Source: Haloplanus sp. CK5-1 (GTDB lineage Archaea; Halobacteriota; Halobacteria; Halobacteriales; Haloferacaceae). Taken from it: a DNA stretch of 64,000 bases. The notes under the pieces were generated by a model that saw only the letters and a program-made list of their open reading frames with translations, was not told the origin of the DNA and searched no databases. Positions 38,191-52,349 of the stretch are shown in pieces (within the stretch, counting starts at the first letter, position 1; each line of letters starts with the position of its first letter). The stretch spans positions 496,001 through 560,000 of the forward strand of contig NZ_CP147505.1 in the NCBI RefSeq assembly GCF_037201915.1. Reading direction: 5' to 3'. The translations under genes and the position numbers were made by a program.

Positions 38191-38952
38191 TCACTCGGGC
38201 GGGCGTCCCTGCTCGCGTCGAACCGCGAGGACCGACAGATCGGAAAACGGCGTGTCCTCCGGATCGGATCCCCCCTCGTGAGTCGCCAGCTCTCCGAGCG
38301 TCGACCGAGTGGTCGCCTCGTCGTCGTGAGTCAACCGCTCCAGCACCAGCGCCGGTGTCCCCGGCGATGCCCCCGCCTCCAGCAGGTGGGAAGCCACATC
38401 CCCCGGCATCCAGTCGTAGGGTCGCGGCAGGACCAGTAGGTGCCGGTCGCCGGCGTCGGCCCGCAGGCGCGCGAGGTCCGCGTCGAGCGACCCACGCTTG
38501 TGGAGCGTGACGAACGTCGTCTCCTCCATCGGAGTGCGGGCGCGGCTCGCGGCCACCTGCAGCGAGGAGATGCCCGGAACGACCCGTACTCGCCCCTCGA
38601 CGGCCGACTCTACCTTGCCGACGAACTGGTAGCCCGAGTGGTTCGGGTCGCCCATGAGGACGGCTACCCCGGACGCCCCCGCGTCGACACGGTCGGCGAA
38701 CGCCGACAGGGTTTCGCCCTCGTCGGTGTAGCCACAGGTGAGCCAGTCGGCGCCGGTGTCGACCTCGCCCCGGACCACGTCGACGACCGTCTCGAAGCCG
38801 ACGACGACGTCGGCCTCGCGGATCGCGCGCCGTGCCCGTGGGACGAGATACTCGGGGCTCCCGGGCCCGACGCCGACCGCGTGGACCGGATCGGTGGCGT
38901 CGCCCTCCGGTTCGTTCGCGGCGACGGCCGCGGGGTCGCGGTCGCGGCTCAC
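38191..38952 (-). CDS. cbiE: cobalt-precorrin-7 C5-methyltransferase (CbiE)
   Basis: The 253-residue SAM-dependent tetrapyrrole methylase starts at GTG 38952, which overlaps the cbiC TGA as GTGA. 'VHAVGVGPGSPEYLVPRARRAI' is the N-terminal glycine-rich signature, and 'VAVLMGDPNHSGYQFVGKV' and 'VRVVPGISSLQVAASRARTPME' complete the cofactor cleft. CbiE methylates C5; its partner CbiT (C15 methylation/decarboxylation) is a separate gene at 56002. Third gene of cobN-cbiC-cbiE. Confidence 0.9.
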   Translation of the reverse strand: MSRDRDPAAVAANEPEGDATDPVHAVGVGPGSPEYLVPRARRAIREADVVVGFETVVDVVRGEVDTGADWLTCGYTDEGETLSAFADRVDAGASGVAVLMGDPNHSGYQFVGKVESAVEGRVRVVPGISSLQVAASRARTPMEETTFVTLHKRGSLDADLARLRADAGDRHLLVLPRPYDWMPGDVASHLLEAGASPGTPALVLERLTHDDEATTRSTLGELATHEGGSDPEDTPFSDLSVLAVRREQGRPPE

Positions 38953-39626
38953 AGATCGACGGCCCCGTTGCGGGCGTCGCTGGCGACGTGGACCAGTTCG
39001 TTCGTCAGGCCGGCCGCTAGTCCGCTCCCACCGCGCCGGCCCACGTTCGTCACCGCCGGGACGCCGTGGTCGGCGGCGACGGCCCGCAGGCGTTCGCGGC
39101 TCTCGGCGGCCTTGACGAAGCCGACGGGCGTGGCGACGACGACGGCCGGCCGGGTGCCCGACTCGATGCAGTCCGCGAGCGCCAGCGCTGCCGTCGGCGC
39201 GTTGCCGACCGTCGCGATTGCCCCGTCGTAGACGCCCGCACGGTCGAGTTCGAGTACCGACGCGGCGGTCCGGGTCATCCCCGTCTCCGCCGCCAGTTCG
39301 CTCCCGTTGCCGATGGCCTTCCGAACCGGGCAGTCGTGACCCCGGCCGGTGATCCCCGCCTTCACCATCGTGATGTCCGTGACGATCGGTCGCTCGTCGA
39401 GGACTGCGCGCGCGCCGGCCCGAACCGGGTGGTCGGGATCGTCGCCGGTGAACCGCATCAGGTGCTGGAACTCTGGATCGCCGGTCGCGTGGACGGACTT
39501 CTGTCGGATTCTGTCCGCGAGCGTCGCGTCGGGAACGAGTTCGCGGACACGGTCCATACTCGTCTCGGCGATCTCCATCGCGTCCGCGGTGGTGGCACCG
39601 AGATCGGCGTACTCCTCGGTCGTCAT
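38949..39626 (-). CDS. cbiC: cobalt-precorrin-8 methylmutase (CbiC)
   Basis: The 225-residue enzyme moves the C11 methyl group to C12, yielding (cobalt) hydrogenobyrinic/cobyrinic acid. The active-site His is in 'RQKSVHATGDPEFQHLMRF', and 'TDITMVKAGITGR' and 'IATVGNAPTAALALAD' and 'ATPVGFVKAAESRERL' match the family. The start ATG 39626 is preceded by GGGAGGGAG, an unusually strong Shine-Dalgarno sequence for a haloarchaeon. That ATG is also the terminus of the chain of mini-ORFs in the 65-bp repeats. Confidence 0.93.
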   Translation of the reverse strand: MTTEEYADLGATTADAMEIAETSMDRVRELVPDATLADRIRQKSVHATGDPEFQHLMRFTGDDPDHPVRAGARAVLDERPIVTDITMVKAGITGRGHDCPVRKAIGNGSELAAETGMTRTAASVLELDRAGVYDGAIATVGNAPTAALALADCIESGTRPAVVVATPVGFVKAAESRERLRAVAADHGVPAVTNVGRRGGSGLAAGLTNELVHVASDARNGAVDL

Positions 39627-39890
39627 CGCTCTCCCTCCCGATGACGACGTGTTCCGACCGACACGCAACGACCACCGACCTCAGTCGTCATCGCTCTCCC
39701 TCCCGATGACGACGTGTTCCGACCGACACGCAACGACCACCGACCTCAGTCGTCATCGCTCTCCCTCCCGATGACGACGTGTTCCGACCGACACGCAACG
39801 ACCACCGACCTCAGTCGTCATCGCTCTCCCTCCCGATGACGACGTGTTCCGACCGACACGCAACGACCACCGACCTCAGTCGTCATCGCT
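39619..39890. repeat. 65-bp tandem repeat, four copies plus a partial
   Basis: Units start at 39619, 39684, 39749 and 39814, with a 12-base partial at 39879. The copies appear identical. The array spans the cbiC start codons to the cobN stop. On the minus strand each unit carries GGGAGGGAGAGCGATGACGAC. A period of 65 (not a multiple of 3) shifts the frame by one each time. It is not a CRISPR: there are no spacers. Confidence 0.95.
39623..39886 (-). other. chain of four overlapping 22-codon mini-ORFs
   Basis: Each 65-bp unit gives an ATG frame of 22 codons (begins MTTEVGGRCV, ends REGER) whose TGA overlaps the next ATG as ATGA. The four frames are 39886-39818, 39821-39753, 39756-39688 and 39691-39623. 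The first ATG lies inside the cobN 3' end, ten bases before its stop; the last stop overlaps the cbiC ATG. All share the same Shine-Dalgarno. The chain would allow ribosomes to pass from cobN to cbiC. Translation of the peptides is inferred, not shown. Confidence 0.6.
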
Positions 39891-42800
39891 CGTCACCTCC
39901 GTCTCCGACTCCACCGCACCGCCACCCGACGCCCGCGCCTCCAGATCCCCGTCGACCCGCAGGTTCAGGTCGCGCAGGCGGTCGGCCGTCGCGTCGTCGG
40001 CGTCCCACAGGCCACGCTCTATCGCCTCCAGTAGGGTGTCCGTGATGCTCTCCAAGGCCCACGGGTTCACCTCGCGGAGCCACTCTTGGCGGTCGTCGTC
40101 GAAGGCGTACTTCTCGGCCACGTCCGTCCACAACCGGTCGCTCACGACGCCGGTCGTGGCGTCCCACCCCAGCGCCACGTCGACCGTCGTCGAGAGGTCG
40201 CCCGCGCCCTTGTAGCCGTGTTCTTCCATGCTGTCCAGCCAGTCGGGGTTGAGGACGCGGGCGCGCATCGCCTTGCGTACTTTCTCCTCGTTCGTGTAGA
40301 CGTCGACGTGGTCGGGATCCGAGGAGTCGCCGACGTAGGAGGCCGGTTCCTCGCCCCGGGCCTCGGTCACGGCGGTGATGAACCCGCCGTGGAAGGCGTA
40401 CCAGTCCGAGGAGTCGAACTCGTCCTGTTCGCCCGTGTCCTCGATTTTCACCGTCGCCTCGACGGTTCCGAGGCGGCGTTCGAAGGCGTCGTGGGCCTCC
40501 GAGACGCGCCCCCGCGAGCCGAGCGCGTAGCCGCCCCACTGGACGTACACGTCCGCGAGGTCCGAGCGGTCGTCCCACTCGCCCTCGTCGACGGCCTTGT
40601 TCGTCCCCGCGCCGTAGCCGCCGGGTCGGGTGGTGAACACGCGATGGGTCGCGGCCGTCTCGGCGTCGTCGGGATCCATCCCCTCAGCGATCAGCTCCTC
40701 GCTCTCCTCCTCGACGTGCTTCTTGACGTAGTTGCGGTCGTGGGGTTCGTCCAGTGCGACCACCGCGTCGACGGCGTCGTGGATCACGCTCGCGGCCTGC
40801 GGGAAGGCGTCGCGGAACAGCCCGGAGACCCGCGTCGTCACGTCGATCCGCGGGCGGCCCAGTTCGTCGAGCGGAGTCGGAGTCACGTCGTCGATCCGGC
40901 CGGCGTCGGTCCACTCGGGTTCGACGCCCATCAGCGCGAGCACCTGCGCGACCGTCTCGCCGCGGGTGCGGACGGTGGGGGTCCCCCACGCGACGACGCC
41001 GATCTCCTCGGGGTACTCGCCCTCCGCCGAGCGGTGTCGCTCCGCCACTCCGTCGGCCACCTCGCGGCCGACCCGCCACGCGCTCTTGGCCGGCACCTTG
41101 CGGGGGTCGAGCGTGTAGAAGTTCCGCCCCGTCGGGAGCAGGTCGACGCCGCCACGGGTTGGCGCGCCGCTCCCGCCGGGCGGGACGTACTCGCCCGCCA
41201 GTGCGTCGGCGGTGCGGGGGATCTCCTCGCTCGCGCCGGCGACGCGGGGCACGGCCTCCGCACAGACGTACGCGAGCGCCTCGCGGAGGTCGTCGTGTTC
41301 GCCCGCCCGCGCCCGCGAGTCGCCGAGGGGGTCGATGTCGACGACCAGCAGGTTCATGTTCACCTCGTCGTCGGGGCCGGCCTCGCGCTCCGACTCGGGC
41401 ACGTCGAAGTCGTGGGCGGCGAGCGTCGAGACGAGGTCGCGGCTCGTCTCGTACACCTCGTCGGCCGCCTGCGCGTAGGTCATCCCCAGCGACTCGTCGT
41501 AGGTGCCGGGTTCTTCGAGCATGCGCTCGTAGTCGACGCCGAGGACGCCCGCGACGCTCTCGCGGAGGCTGGGTGCGCCCGGATTCTCGAGGCGAGTGAG
41601 CGCGACCAGATACTCGACCAACCGATCGTCGACGGGCGGTTCGCCCATCGTGTGCAGCCCCATCCGGATCTGGGTGGTCTTCACGTCGGTCAGGTACTCG
41701 TGGATCCGCTCGACGAGTTCGTCGATGGGGAGGGAGTCGCCTTCGACCGCGCCGTCTGCGAGCGTCGACCCCGCCGCGTCGGGGCCGCGCACGTCGGCCT
41801 TCTCGACGGTGCCCTCGATTCCGAGTTCCAGCGCGAGGTCGAGGTCGGCGACCGTCTCGCGGATCTCGCGTTCGAGCGCCGCGCCGTCGTCGGTTCTCGC
41901 GTCTGCCATCCCCGCCTCACGGTAGCGGTCCGCTAACTCTTCGAGTTCGGCGAGGCCGTCGTACGTCCCCGCGTTCGACATGACGGGCGTGAGGTGGTCG
42001 ACGATTGCGGCGTAGGCGCGGCGCTTGGCCTGCGTCCCCTCGCCGGGGTTGTTGACGATGTAGGGGTAGACGTTCGGCAGGTCGTCGATCAGGCCGTCGG
42101 GTGCGCTCGTGCCGTCGAGACCCACGGTCTTGCCGGGGAGCCACTCCAGCGAGCCGTGGGTGCCGAGGTGAACGACGGCGTCGGCGTCGTACGCGTTCCG
42201 GAGCCACGCGTAGAAGGCAACGTAGTCGTGTGGTGGCTGGAGGTCGGAGTCGTGGTACACCTTCGAGGGGTCCATCCCGAACCCGCGGGGGGGCTGGACG
42301 GTGACGAGGACGTTCCCGAACTCGACGCCGGGGATGGCGAAGGGTCGATCGGGTGGATCGCCCCACTCCCCGATCACGTTCTCGCGGAAGCGGTCGTCCA
42401 CGTCGCCGAACCAGTCGCAGTAGCGGTTCGGTGAGACGGTGTCGACGCTCAGTTCCCGGACGTCCTCGGGGGCGACCCAGCGGTCGTCGAGGGTGAGTTG
42501 GGCGGTCAGGCGGTCGATGAGCGTCGCGCCGTCGTCGGGCGCCCCGGTTCCGAGGTCGTAGCCCCGGTCGTCGAGTTCCTCGAGCAGGTTGATCGTGCTC
42601 TCGGGGGTGTCGAGGCCGAAGGCGGTGCCGATGCCGTCGTCGCTCGGCGGGTAGTTGTGGAGGACGACCGCGATCCGTTTCTCCTCGTTGGGGGTGTGAC
42701 GCAGGCGCGCCCAGTTGACTGCCAGGCGAGCGACGTGGTCGATCCGGTCCTCGATGGGGAAATGCTGTTTGGGGGAGGTGCCGATGCCCGCCTCGTCCTC

Positions 42801-43772
42801 GGTGCGCTCCTTCCCGCTGATGGGGTGGGTGATGACGTTGCCGTCGAACTCCGGGAGCGCGACCGAGAGCGCGAGTTCGAAGCCCATGACACCCGTGTCG
42901 CTCCCCTCGTACCGGGAGCGCGAGCGCATCGTCGTCACCGTCTGGAGGACGGGAACGCCCAATCGATCCAGGAAGACCTCTTCTGCACCCTGGCCCTCGT
43001 CGGCGGCCGACCGGCCCCGCTCTTCCATCGACAGCGAGAACATGAACGAGGAGCAGACGGCGTCGACGACGGGGTCGCCGCCGTCAAGGAGCCACTCGTC
43101 GGTGACCCACTCGGCGTCCTCCTGCTCGTCGGTGTCGGTCGCCGGGTTGCAGAATATCGGGAGCGCGTCCGCGCCCTGCGCTTCGATGGCCCGCACCTGC
43201 GCGTCGACGTAGCGGGTGTTCTCGTGGGTCCAGTGGGACTCGTAGAACCAGACCGCAACCGTCGGCGTCCCGGGGTCGAACGTCGCCACGAGGTCGTCGT
43301 ACCCCGCGCCGGGGTGGTCGGGATGGTACACCCCTTCGGTGGGGAGCGAGACGGGGTCGTCGTAGCTCCGGTCGACGGCTCCGAACCGGTCGATCAGGTA
43401 CCGCAGGCAGTTGGCGACGTTGGTGGTGCCGCCGCGGTCGAGGTAGTCGTACACCGCGTCCCGGTCCGCCGGGGCGACGGTCGTGTCCTCTATCGCGTAG
43501 GCGTCGCCGGTCGACTTGACGACCAGCGGGATGCCCGCGTCGTCGAGGCGGTCGACGACCCGGTCGTAGCCGGGCATGCTCTCCTCGGAGCCGTGGAGCC
43601 ACAACACGACCGCCGTCGCGTCCTCTACGGCGTCGACGAACGCCTCGACCGCCGTCTCGTCGTCGAGGTCGCTCTCCGATCGGGCGACCAGGTCTCCGTC
43701 GACCTCCCCCGCGGCGCGCTGGACGGCCCCGAGTTCGTTCTCCGTCGCGGTGTACAAGCCGATGGTGGGCAT
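39876..43772 (-). CDS. cobN: cobaltochelatase large subunit CobN
   Basis: The 1298-residue protein is the CobN/BchH-type porphyrin-binding subunit. It shows 'YESHWTHENTRYVDAQVRAIEAQGADALPIF', 'VVLHNYPPSDDGIGTAFGLDTPES', 'GFGMDPSKVYHDSDLQPPHDYVAFYAWLR', 'VHLGTHGSLEWLPGKTVGL' and the later 'TRPGGYGAGTNKAVDEGEWDDRSDLADVYVQWGGYALG'. With AAA+ subunits it inserts Co2+ into the corrin ring, in the aerobic pathway at hydrogenobyrinic a,c-diamide. The divergent ChlI/ChlD fusion starts 34 bases away. The upstream frame extension to 43970 overlaps that gene and is rejected. Confidence 0.92.
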   Translation of the reverse strand: MPTIGLYTATENELGAVQRAAGEVDGDLVARSESDLDDETAVEAFVDAVEDATAVVLWLHGSEESMPGYDRVVDRLDDAGIPLVVKSTGDAYAIEDTTVAPADRDAVYDYLDRGGTTNVANCLRYLIDRFGAVDRSYDDPVSLPTEGVYHPDHPGAGYDDLVATFDPGTPTVAVWFYESHWTHENTRYVDAQVRAIEAQGADALPIFCNPATDTDEQEDAEWVTDEWLLDGGDPVVDAVCSSFMFSLSMEERGRSAADEGQGAEEVFLDRLGVPVLQTVTTMRSRSRYEGSDTGVMGFELALSVALPEFDGNVITHPISGKERTEDEAGIGTSPKQHFPIEDRIDHVARLAVNWARLRHTPNEEKRIAVVLHNYPPSDDGIGTAFGLDTPESTINLLEELDDRGYDLGTGAPDDGATLIDRLTAQLTLDDRWVAPEDVRELSVDTVSPNRYCDWFGDVDDRFRENVIGEWGDPPDRPFAIPGVEFGNVLVTVQPPRGFGMDPSKVYHDSDLQPPHDYVAFYAWLRNAYDADAVVHLGTHGSLEWLPGKTVGLDGTSAPDGLIDDLPNVYPYIVNNPGEGTQAKRRAYAAIVDHLTPVMSNAGTYDGLAELEELADRYREAGMADARTDDGAALEREIRETVADLDLALELGIEGTVEKADVRGPDAAGSTLADGAVEGDSLPIDELVERIHEYLTDVKTTQIRMGLHTMGEPPVDDRLVEYLVALTRLENPGAPSLRESVAGVLGVDYERMLEEPGTYDESLGMTYAQAADEVYETSRDLVSTLAAHDFDVPESEREAGPDDEVNMNLLVVDIDPLGDSRARAGEHDDLREALAYVCAEAVPRVAGASEEIPRTADALAGEYVPPGGSGAPTRGGVDLLPTGRNFYTLDPRKVPAKSAWRVGREVADGVAERHRSAEGEYPEEIGVVAWGTPTVRTRGETVAQVLALMGVEPEWTDAGRIDDVTPTPLDELGRPRIDVTTRVSGLFRDAFPQAASVIHDAVDAVVALDEPHDRNYVKKHVEEESEELIAEGMDPDDAETAATHRVFTTRPGGYGAGTNKAVDEGEWDDRSDLADVYVQWGGYALGSRGRVSEAHDAFERRLGTVEATVKIEDTGEQDEFDSSDWYAFHGGFITAVTEARGEEPASYVGDSSDPDHVDVYTNEEKVRKAMRARVLNPDWLDSMEEHGYKGAGDLSTTVDVALGWDATTGVVSDRLWTDVAEKYAFDDDRQEWLREVNPWALESITDTLLEAIERGLWDADDATADRLRDLNLRVDGDLEARASGGGAVESETEVTSDDD

Positions 43773-43806: not shown

Positions 43807-46047
43807 GTGCTTGAATACACCGAGGACAAAAACTCTTCGGGGATCGGGGGTGAGCGAGTCGGTTTCGACGAGATAGTCGGGCAATCCGAACTCAAGCGTG
43901 CTTTACTCGCGGTGGGCGCGAACGACGCGCTGGACGGCCTCCTGATCCGGGGGGAGAAGGGGACGGCCAAGTCGACGGCCGTCCGCGCGCTGTCGGCGTT
44001 GCTCCCGGACCGGCGGGTCGTGGCCGACTGTCCCTACGGCTGTCCGGCGGGCGACCCCGACCGGCAGTGTGCGAACTGTCGGGAGCGGGCGGACCCGCCG
44101 ACCGAGACGCGGTCGGTGCCGCTCGTCACCCTCCCGCTGGGGGCGACCCGGGAGCGCGTCGTCGGGACGCTCTCCGTCGCCGACGCCCTCGACGGCGACT
44201 ACGAGTTCGATCCCGGCCTCCTCGCCCGCGCGAACGGCGGCATCCTCTACGTCGACGAGGTGAACCTACTCGACGACCACCTCGTCGACGTGTTGTTGGA
44301 CGCCGCGGCGGGCGGCGTCAACCGGGTCGAGCGCGACGGCGTGAGCGTCGCCCACCCCGCAGCGTTCACCCTCGTCGGGACGATGAACCCCGAGGAGGGG
44401 GAGTTGCGGCCACAACTCCGGGATCGCTTCGCACTCCAGGCGACGGTGACCGGTTGTGACGACATCGAGGACCGCGTCGCCATCGTCGACCGGGCGCTCG
44501 GACGCGAGAGCGAGGAGCCACGCTCCTCGGCAAAGAGCGAGGAGCCACGCTCCTCGGCAAAGAGCGAGGAGCCACGCTCCTCGGCAAAGAGCGAGGAGCC
44601 ACGCTCCTCGGCAAAGAGCGAGGAGCCACGCACTCCGGATATCGAAGACCCGGCGACCCGCCTGTCGACCGCGCGGGACCGACTCTCCGAGGTGACGCTT
44701 CCGGACGCGTTCGTCCGCGACCTCGTCGAACTGTGCCGTGACGCGGGCGTCGAGGGCCACCGAGCCGACATCGCGACGGCGCGGGCGGCCCGGACCTTCG
44801 CCGCCCTCGACGACCGACCGACGGTGATCGAGTCCGACGTGCGGCGCGCGGCCGAACTCGCGCTCCCTCACCGCCTCGAATCCCTCCCCTTCGACGACGC
44901 GCCCGACCTGGAGACGGTCGTCGACGACCACTTCGACGAGGGGGACGACGGTGACACCGACGACCGGGACGTCGAGGATGGTGCCGAGAACGGTGGGGGT
45001 GACGCGGACGATGCCGACGCCGACGGCGGAGCCCGGACCAACGAGGGCGACGCGAGCGATGAGGAGGCGAACGGAGCAGACGGCTCCGCGGCCGACGACT
45101 CCACCGAACCCACCGGCGCCGACGACCCCGGCGGGGTGTCCTCGTCCCGATCCGGCGACCTCTCCGATGCCGGCGACGACGCGGGCGGCGACGACCCCGA
45201 CGCCGATGCCGGGGGTGGAGCCGACGACGACGCTCCCGACCCGACCCCTCGCGTCCCGGGCGAACGCCCGGCTGCGGTCGGATCGGGCCGTGCCCCGTCA
45301 CTCCCCGACGCCGACGATCCAGCCGACGCGTCGTCGTCGAGTGGTGGGGCGCGGGCGCGGGCGAGCGTCGACGGGACCGGCGCCCGCGTTCGTACCCGAC
45401 CCACCGACGGCGAGGACGTCGACGCCGCGGCGTCGGTGCGCGCGGCGGCCGCTCGCGGCGTCGACACCGTCGAATCGCGGGACCTCCGGCGATCGGTTCG
45501 GGCCGCCGAGGCGTCGACGCTCGTCGTCTTCTCCGTCGACGCCAGCGCGTCGATGCGTCCCGCCATGCGCGCCGCCAAGGGGACCGTCCTCGAACTGCTG
45601 GAGGACACCTACCAGCAACGCGACCGCGTGAGTTTCGTCGCTTTCGCCGGCGAGGACGCGGACGTGTTGCTCCCCCCGACCGACAGCGTCACGCTCGCAG
45701 CGCGCCACCTGAAGCAACTCCCGACAGGCGATCGGACGCCACTCCCTGCCGGCCTGCGGACCGCGGGCGACGTGATCGAACGCGCCGATCCCGCCGCGAG
45801 CGTCGTCGTCCTCGTCACCGACGGCCGGGCGAACGTCGCCGACGGGAGTCCGGTCGCCGCGACTCGCCGTGCCGCCGACCGCCTGTCCGACCTCGACGCG
45901 CGCGTCCTCGTCGTCGACGCCGGTTCGGGCGACCGATCCGGCCTCGTTCCCGAAGTCGTCGAGCGGACGACCGGCCGTCGCGTCCCCCTCGACGCGCTCT
46001 CGGCCGACGCCGTCGACGCCGCGGCCGGGGCGGTCGACGAAAGTTGA
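43807..46047 (+). CDS. ChlI/ChlD-type chelatase ATPase subunit fusion (cobaltochelatase partner)
   Basis: The 746-residue protein starts at GTG 43807. The N-terminal AAA+ domain has Walker A (GEKGTAKST, about residues 49-57), a Cys-rich insert (CPYGC and CANC), and Walker B (ILYVDEVNLLDD). At about 234-278 there are four repeats of SEEPRSSAK encoded by a 27-bp tandem repeat. An acidic Asp/Gly/Ala linker (about 375-480) leads to a C-terminal von Willebrand A domain with the MIDAS DASASM (near residue 580). In bacteria ChlI/ChlD (or CobS/CobT) drive CobN or ChlH. Placement divergent from cobN argues for cobalt rather than magnesium. Confidence 0.87.
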   Translation: MLEYTEDKNSSGIGGERVGFDEIVGQSELKRALLAVGANDALDGLLIRGEKGTAKSTAVRALSALLPDRRVVADCPYGCPAGDPDRQCANCRERADPPTETRSVPLVTLPLGATRERVVGTLSVADALDGDYEFDPGLLARANGGILYVDEVNLLDDHLVDVLLDAAAGGVNRVERDGVSVAHPAAFTLVGTMNPEEGELRPQLRDRFALQATVTGCDDIEDRVAIVDRALGRESEEPRSSAKSEEPRSSAKSEEPRSSAKSEEPRSSAKSEEPRTPDIEDPATRLSTARDRLSEVTLPDAFVRDLVELCRDAGVEGHRADIATARAARTFAALDDRPTVIESDVRRAAELALPHRLESLPFDDAPDLETVVDDHFDEGDDGDTDDRDVEDGAENGGGDADDADADGGARTNEGDASDEEANGADGSAADDSTEPTGADDPGGVSSSRSGDLSDAGDDAGGDDPDADAGGGADDDAPDPTPRVPGERPAAVGSGRAPSLPDADDPADASSSSGGARARASVDGTGARVRTRPTDGEDVDAAASVRAAAARGVDTVESRDLRRSVRAAEASTLVVFSVDASASMRPAMRAAKGTVLELLEDTYQQRDRVSFVAFAGEDADVLLPPTDSVTLAARHLKQLPTGDRTPLPAGLRTAGDVIERADPAASVVVLVTDGRANVADGSPVAATRRAADRLSDLDARVLVVDAGSGDRSGLVPEVVERTTGRRVPLDALSADAVDAAAGAVDES
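44507..44640 (+). repeat. 27-bp tandem palindromic repeat inside the chelatase gene
   Basis: Units start at 44507, 44534, 44561, 44588 and (partial) 44615. Each contains GAGGAGC-CAC-GCTCCTC, a 7-bp hairpin. Because 27 is a multiple of 3 the reading frame is kept and the protein gains SEEPRSSAK four times. The insert falls between the AAA+ core and lid. Confidence 0.92.
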
Positions 46048-51115: not shown

Positions 51116-51336
51116 CGTTCCTCCACGGTGATGGCGTCGACCGGACAGGCCGCGGCGGCCCCTCGGGCGTCCGCTATGCGGTCGTCGTCGCAGTCGAGGG
51201 CCACCGTCCCCTCCGTCTTGGCCCCCGCGACCGTCGCCAGCCCGTCGTCGGCCTCGACGAAGCGGTCGTCGCGGACCAGACAGGCGAAGATGCCCTCACA
51301 GGCGCCGCGGTCGAGTCGGATGCGATAGCGGGTCAT
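51112..51336 (-). CDS. small ferredoxin ([3Fe-4S]/[4Fe-4S] single-cluster type)
   Basis: The 74-residue protein has Cys13-x5-Cys19 (GACEGIFACL), Cys49 and Cys64-Pro (AACPVDAI). The middle Cys of the usual CxxCxxC is replaced by Ile16, as in [3Fe-4S] ferredoxins of P450 systems. It probably donates electrons to a reductive step of the corrin pathway. Its neighbours overlap it by one base (cbiH) and four bases (LAGLIDADG-like). Confidence 0.85.
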   Translation of the reverse strand: MTRYRIRLDRGACEGIFACLVRDDRFVEADDGLATVAGAKTEGTVALDCDDDRIADARGAAAACPVDAITVEER

Positions 51337-52349
51337 CAGTAGTCGTACTTGCTCTCGTAGCCCCGCGGCGTGACCATCCGTCCGTCCCAGACGTACGTCT
51401 CCTCGTTGCCGACGATGATCGTCGTCGTCATGTCGATCAGGTCGGTCTCGCCCAGGCCCTCCAGGTCGCCGAGGTCGACGATTTCGGTCTTCTCGTCCTC
51501 GCGGCCCGCGCCGTGGACGATCCCCACCGGCGTCTCCGGATCGCGGTGTTCCAGCAGGATCTCGCAACACTTCTCGAAGTTCTCGCGGCGCTTCCGGCTC
51601 CACGGGTTGTAGATGGCGACGGTGAACCCTTCCTTGGCGGCGGCGTGGAGGCGCGACTCGATCGTCGGCATGTCGGTGAGGTGGTCCGACAGCGAGATGG
51701 AGACGGTGTCGTTGACCAGTGGCGCGCCCAGCCGTGCCCCACAGGACTGTGCGGCGGGGACGCCGGGAACCACCTCGAAGTCGACCATCGAGGCCGTTCC
51801 ACCCTTGGATTCGAGGATCTCCAGCGCCAGCCCCGCGAGCGCGTAGACGTTCGGGTCGCCGCTCCCGATGATCGCCACGTCGTTGCCCGCGAGCGCGCGG
51901 TCGATGGCCTCCTCGGTGCGCGAGACTTCGCCGCACATCGGCGTGTCGTACAGCTCGTCGGCCGACTCGGTCACCTCGTCGGGCAGGAGGTCGACGTACG
52001 TGGTGTAGCCGACGACGTGTTCCGCGTCGAGCAACGCCCCGCGGGCGCGCTCGGTCATTCCTTCGGGTTGGCCGGGGCCGAGGCCGACCGCCACGAGGCG
52101 GCCGGGGTCGGCGTCGAAGTCGTCGACGGTCGAGCCCACCTTCTCGTCGGTCGACCCGCCGCCACAGGACGATCCGCTCCCCGACGAATCGTCGGCCGAG
52201 GCGCCGCATTTCGACGCCGTCGTCTCCGTGTCGGTCGTTGTCGACGCGCCGCATTTCGAGTCGGTTGCTTCGGCCTCGGTCGTCGCCGACGCCCCGCAGG
52301 TCGTCTCCGTCTCGGTACTCGCCGTCGTGTCAGTGTCTTCGGTACTCAT
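51336..52349 (-). CDS. cbiH: cobalt-precorrin-3B C17-methyltransferase with Cys-repeat extension
   Basis: The 337-residue protein has a standard CbiH/CobJ methylase domain from about residue 85: 'LVAVGLGPGQPEGMTERARGAL', 'VAIIGSGDPNVYALAGLALEIL', 'VVPGVPAAQSCGARLGAPLVND', and the C-terminal 'DMTTTIIVGNEETYVWDGRMVTPRGY'. Before it is a Thr/Ser/Glu-rich extension with Cys18, Cys33, Cys48 (each in CGAS) and Cys62, in 15-residue repeats. Such cysteines could bind Fe-S or cobalt. CbiH methylates C17 and contracts the ring. A second paralogue lies two bases upstream. Confidence 0.88.
   Translation of the reverse strand: MSTEDTDTTASTETETTCGASATTEAEATDSKCGASTTTDTETTASKCGASADDSSGSGSSCGGGSTDEKVGSTVDDFDADPGRLVAVGLGPGQPEGMTERARGALLDAEHVVGYTTYVDLLPDEVTESADELYDTPMCGEVSRTEEAIDRALAGNDVAIIGSGDPNVYALAGLALEILESKGGTASMVDFEVVPGVPAAQSCGARLGAPLVNDTVSISLSDHLTDMPTIESRLHAAAKEGFTVAIYNPWSRKRRENFEKCCEILLEHRDPETPVGIVHGAGREDEKTEIVDLGDLEGLGETDLIDMTTTIIVGNEETYVWDGRMVTPRGYESKYDY
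52200..52320 (-). repeat. 45-bp imperfect repeats encoding CGAS units
   Basis: Three related segments containing GAAATGCGGCGC or GGGGCGTCGGCG-type sequence encode the 15-residue repeats with CGAS at Cys18, Cys33 and Cys48 of CbiH. Divergence between the copies shows they are not recent. Confidence 0.6.

Follow-up and report, generated by a model that had tools for sequence, protein, structure and literature searches.

The 64,000-nt stretch of the Haloplanus sp. CK5-1 chromosome analysed here (NZ_CP147505.1, positions 496,001 to 560,000; referred to below as the window) contains the cobalamin genes cobN and cbiC, and these are joined by a tandem array of four identical 65-bp units, each carrying a mini open reading frame (mini-ORF) of 22 codons. 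Comparison with the corresponding junctions of other haloarchaea suggests that the array is probably a translated bridge, which keeps cbiC coupled to cobN and has been tandemly amplified in one Haloplanus lineage.

Anatomy of the array

The array and its flanking genes are listed below by window coordinates.

39614..39900, minus strand: tandem array, four full units with partial copies on the flanks; period 65, 4.4 copies, 98% (Tandem Repeats Finder, TRF)
39876..43772 (start approximate), minus strand: cobN, cobaltochelatase large subunit (Pfam PF02514, E=0)
39893..39900, minus strand: Shine-Dalgarno motif GGAGGTGA within the cobN tail, ahead of the first ATG
39818..39886, minus strand: mini-ORF 1, 22 codons
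39753..39821, minus strand: mini-ORF 2
39688..39756, minus strand: mini-ORF 3
39623..39691, minus strand: mini-ORF 4, whose TGA (39625-39623) shares 4 nt with the cbiC ATG
38949..39626, minus strand: cbiC, precorrin-8X methylmutase, 225 amino acids (PF02570, E=7e-47)

The minus strand is the coding strand of both genes, and on it ATG codons occur at 39886, 39821, 39756, 39691 and 39626, the last being the start of cbiC. An identical frame (MTTEVGGRCVSVGTRRHREGER and a stop) opens at each of the other four ATGs, and at all four junctions the TGA of a mini-ORF shares 4 nt (ATGA) with the ATG that follows. The ATG of mini-ORF 1 overlaps the cobN stop codon (39878-39876) by 11 nt, and the gap from that stop to the cbiC ATG is 249 nt. 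One 11-nt overlap is thus followed by four of 4 nt, the geometry of a coupled operon, where start and stop overlap or are no more than about 10 nt apart. The first ATG is preceded by GGAGGTGA and the four downstream ATGs by GGGAGGGAG. The stop of cbiC in turn overlaps by 4 nt (GTGA) a GTG at which the next gene is taken to start. The preliminary description of this locus, of 65-bp units with chained 22-codon ATGA frames running from cobN to cbiC, was correct in these points. No second array with a period of >45 bp and at least 3 copies was found in 444 kb sampled from the host genome, which argues against a chance pattern.

Copies in other Haloplanus genomes

Among 12 Haloplanus genomes, the unit was found in only two besides that of the window (G000), and is 65 bp long in all three species. 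Comparison of copy number in relatives, as proposed with the preliminary description, was made between species and gave four copies in G000, two in G004 and one in G008. The window genome has no other copies of the unit, the array being its single locus, and across the 12 Haloplanus genomes the flank pattern likewise occurs at this junction only. When 392 genomes of the order were scanned for the pattern, allowing up to 3 mismatches, no other array appeared; a dispersed or mobile element was rejected because the window genome holds no further copies. The unit middles have diverged between species (13-19 of 32 positions identical, ungapped). The alignment of G000 with G004 has two compensating 3-nt gaps, and the other two pairs align less cleanly. 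The single unit of G008 lies between the copies of a direct repeat of about 17 bp, and this one-copy state would be a natural substrate for tandem expansion.

A cbiC gene was found in 7 of the 12 Haloplanus genomes (L005-L007, L012, L013, L015, L016). Identity to the window CbiC is 91-94% for G004 and G008, 80-82% for the other four Haloplanus, and 88-90% for Halovenus and Haloarcula. Since the last two genera are closer than four of the Haloplanus proteins, transfer of the cobalamin cluster is suggested. Annotated haloarchaeal plasmids carry cbiC.

Junctions of cobN and cbiC across haloarchaea

The survey covered 187 distinct haloarchaeal cobN-cbiC junctions. At 137 of these, the ATG of cbiC itself overlaps the 3' end of cobN, the usual sequence being ATGACGACTGA or ATGACTGA, and such starts are usually preceded by a GGAGGTG-like motif in the cobN tail. 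It follows that mini-ORF 1 opens at what was ancestrally the cbiC start. The other junctions comprise 37 with a mini-ORF, three with a larger inserted gene, nine without the overlap ATG and one odd case (L023). All 37 mini-ORFs end between -11 and +6 nt from the following start (in the Haloplanus arrays, the ATG of the next unit), mostly by a 4-nt ATGA overlap and otherwise by overlaps of 1, 8 or 11 nt, or 6 nt short. The larger insertions (L066, L070/L215 and L100) are genes 131-134 codons long that encode a GlutR_dimer domain (PF00745) and overlap the end of cobN; their overlaps at the cbiC end are 8 and 11 nt in L066 and L100, and in L070 the cbiC start would be TTG.

In Haloferax volcanii reporters, reinitiation falls to near zero at 23 nt (PMC10666635), and with reinitiation lost near 20 nt the 249-nt gap would need a bridge. 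In that organism, Shine-Dalgarno motifs often aid reinitiation at overlaps but give no support to initiation de novo (PMC6728339; PMC3986360). The preliminary description had remarked that strong motifs of this type are rare in haloarchaea, but they are not out of place here, being little used at leading genes and ample at overlapping gene pairs (PMC6728339, PMC3986360). It had also held that a separate cbiC promoter would make coupling irrelevant. A check for TATA-like elements upstream of cbiC gave no convincing one; AT content is 0.27-0.36, as against a mean of 0.44 in junctions that lost the overlap, and no sigma-70-type promoters or intrinsic terminators were found.

Single bridges in a second family

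The mini-ORFs of 34 junctions belong to a second family (f7, Natrialbaceae-type). They occur singly, have 17-28 codons and a sequence unlike the Haloplanus units, and each opens 8 nt ahead of the cobN end. A tree computed from the cobN and cbiC sequences shows junctions with a bridge intermingled with direct ones. On it, f7 mini-ORF length changes mostly by multiples of 3, and the exceptions still end next to cbiC, either by overlapping it by 8 or 11 nt or by stopping 6 nt short. The ratio of nonsynonymous to synonymous polymorphism (pN/pS) of the encoded peptides is 0.92-0.94, compared with 0.12-0.13 for cbiC in the same species, so that the f7 peptides carry no mark of purifying selection. 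A peptide ratio of about 0.93 suggests that the frame is kept and its sequence free; in f7, selection appears to preserve a frame ending at cbiC and not the peptide. At the 3' ends of some f7 mini-ORFs (e.g. L132, L147), more than one frame is closed by a stop close to where cbiC begins (GTGTGATACCAAATGA), so that a ribosome that had slipped out of frame would also terminate near the cbiC start.

Weight of the frame fit and points against coupling

The relation 65 = 69 - 4, first presented as an exact fit to a reinitiation chain, is correct as geometry but less surprising than was stated, as 37-49% of shuffled, random-phase spacers pass the same fit for the Haloplanus units; averaged over all 37 mini-ORF cases the pass rate is 36%. 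Because every ATGA includes a TGA, a chain results from any unit whose length is 2 mod 3 and whose frame has no premature stop, the additional TGA in ATGACGACTGA means that a second phase is also served, and tandem copies inherit the property from a single unit that has it. Chain fit alone is therefore weak, and evidence must come from comparison. The termination-reinitiation chain of the preliminary description draws its support from there and from the literature, namely the f7 bridges, their unconstrained peptide and the Haloferax distance limit. The indel tolerance of real spacers (0.66) exceeds the shuffled-spacer pass rate (0.36). If twelve events are counted, the chance level lies between about 5e-6 and 0.7%; the strength of the test depends on how many independent events are counted, given that the f7 species are related and that 66% of indels are tolerated.

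Several observations weigh against a bridge that maintains coupling. The chance level per lineage is not small (0.36 for shuffled spacers). Natural spacers stay compatible with coupling after 0.66 of random 1-2 nt indels, and the f7 cases are related to one another. Nine junctions, mostly of Halorubrum and Halobaculum types, have lost the overlap ATG and lack a bridge, which implies that coupling is dispensable. A dyad in the Haloplanus unit, described below, is invariant, and this, above all in its 5' arm, is not required by a bridge. Finally, in the parallel case of the mycobacterial interspersed repetitive units (MIRUs), the intergenic region shows promoter activity (PMC4213456) and its MIRUs are reported to drive senX3-independent expression of regX3, and by analogy the Haloplanus array could have promoter activity of that kind.

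Alternative explanations

An unlikely alternative is that the array is a neutral minisatellite, a spacer grown by slippage that has an open frame only by accident, with cbiC having a promoter of its own or being initiated independently. The 37-49% of shuffled Haloplanus spacers that fit a chain would be in keeping with this, as would the character of the junction as a length-variable hot spot, where cbiC N-terminal extensions and spacers vary widely, and the existence of Halorubrum and Halobaculum types that live without the overlap. The 105-nt cobN-cbiC spacer of L097 likewise has degenerate repeats of its own (CACGAACCGTTACGACCACGAACACACTCACCGTCAC-like) and lacks a frame that would bridge it. 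Such a spacer would not, however, account for coupling-compatible ends in 37 of 37 mini-ORFs from two families, nor for the paired 3-nt indels within the Haloplanus units, and independent expression of cbiC sits poorly with the lack of a TATA-like element at the low AT content given above and with Haloferax Shine-Dalgarno motifs that do not act in de novo initiation (PMC3986360).

The second alternative concerns a dyad in each unit, GTCGTCATCG-GGAGGGAGAG-CGATGACGAC, with the Shine-Dalgarno core in its loop and the ATG in its 3' arm.

39814..39843, minus strand: dyad, copy 1
39749..39778, minus strand: dyad, copy 2
39684..39713, minus strand: dyad, copy 3
39619..39648, minus strand: dyad, copy 4, spanning the cbiC start

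The units might chiefly be regulatory hairpins or operators, the dyad folding in mRNA or binding a protein and so gating cbiC. The 30-nt dyad, with perfect 10-bp arms, is unchanged in all seven copies of the three species, set against the 13-19 of 32 identical positions of the unit middles, and the predicted hairpin has a folding energy of -16.7 to -18.3 kcal/mol (z -2.4 to -3.4). Conservation of the 3' part is accounted for by the Shine-Dalgarno core and the start; the conserved 5' arm points to a hairpin in RNA or a site in DNA. As the chief role of the units this is nevertheless improbable, for the dyad is confined to one locus among the 12 Haloplanus genomes, the f7 bridges have none comparable (best 8/10), the array has no Rfam match, and identical copies provide no covariation in favour of RNA pairing; a hairpin or operator role may exist beside coupling. 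A known RNA family was rejected, the lone match being unrelated, below the gathering score, on the opposite strand and inside cobN.

A functional 22-residue peptide made in several copies is very improbable: the frame is open in every copy, but the f7 peptides evolve at a pN/pS of about 0.93 and the middles of the Haloplanus peptides are strongly divergent. The identical copies would be in keeping with an assembly artefact in copy number, but this is very improbable, as the genome is a single contig and two other species, assembled independently, show two and one diverged units, and the unit is real regardless of the exact copy count.

Proposed origin and operation of the bridge

Under the translated bridge that we favour, haloarchaeal cbiC would normally be coupled to cobN by termination-reinitiation, its start lying in the cobN tail behind a Shine-Dalgarno motif. 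In a Haloplanus lineage, the addition of about 65 bp at the junction would have shifted the working cbiC start downstream, leaving the old start to open a 22-codon frame that terminates on the new one. As architecture, both the ancestral coupling layout and a mini-ORF running from the old start to the new are seen directly in the junctions. A ribosome leaving cobN would reinitiate on the mini-ORF, end on ATGA, reinitiate again and so reach cbiC, a relay over a distance that direct reinitiation would not span. The mini-ORFs would accordingly be translated, cbiC would depend on them, and the peptide is probably a by-product.

A unit with a direct repeat of about 17 bp would then have grown to two and four copies by slippage or unequal exchange. 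Since a Shine-Dalgarno core, a start and an overlapping stop come with every unit, a change in copy number leaves the chain intact. Copy number might have an effect of its own, and each extra copy could possibly lower the yield of cbiC. A further proposal, which we regard as doubtful, is that the array acts as a rheostat, in which every copy adds one imperfect reinitiation step, the conserved hairpins set the efficiency of hand-over, and slippage alters the CbiC:CobN yield heritably and reversibly; yield would then change in steps without altering either protein.

Other repeats

Two further tandem repeats were seen. A perfect 27-bp repeat of 4.6 copies (SEEPRSSAK) lies at 44507-44631 of the window, in the neighbouring ChlI/D-like chelatase gene; the equivalent stretch of G008 showed no such repeat. 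A T-rich 15-bp array of about 8 copies, unusual for this GC-rich genome, is present at 11205-11352 of L219 (G000 51205-51352).

Comparison with known systems

The three Haloplanus species and the direct junctions form a natural archaeal series of 0, 1, 2 and 4 relay steps, in which hand-over between consecutive mini-ORFs can be probed. The Haloferax distance rule for reinitiation would here be visible in evolution, a lengthened junction that retains the overlap start becoming a bridge with an apparently unconstrained peptide, and this suggests that some unannotated mini-ORFs of haloarchaeal operons exist for translation itself.

A literature search for repeats tied to translational coupling in archaea found nothing specific. 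The preliminary description knew of no equivalent, but mycobacterial MIRUs share the design (PMC12548453, PMC4213456). The senX3-regX3 MIRU consists of three 77-bp units in H37Rv, and of two 77-bp units and one of 53 bp in CDC1551 (PMC12548453, PMC4213456). The likeness, drawn from their description, lies in a 4-nt overlap between a mini-ORF and the start of the gene behind it and in a tandem copy number that differs between genomes, being 4, 2 and 1 in the three Haloplanus species. MIRUs are interspersed and apparently mobile, whereas the Haloplanus unit is archaeal and occupies one locus; it is MIRU-like in design but, lacking dispersal, is not classed as a MIRU. The overlapping gene pairs of Haloferax volcanii (Huber et al. 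2019, 2023) are alike in their ATGA or 8-nt overlaps, Shine-Dalgarno motifs in the upstream tail and strict coupling, but are junctions of gene with gene, while here non-conserved mini-ORF links are interposed. Short upstream ORFs that deliver ribosomes resemble the array in that translation of the ORF, and not its product, matters downstream (PMC12548453); the Haloplanus mini-ORFs differ in that they would relay ribosomes between two genes of an operon, and are repeated in tandem.
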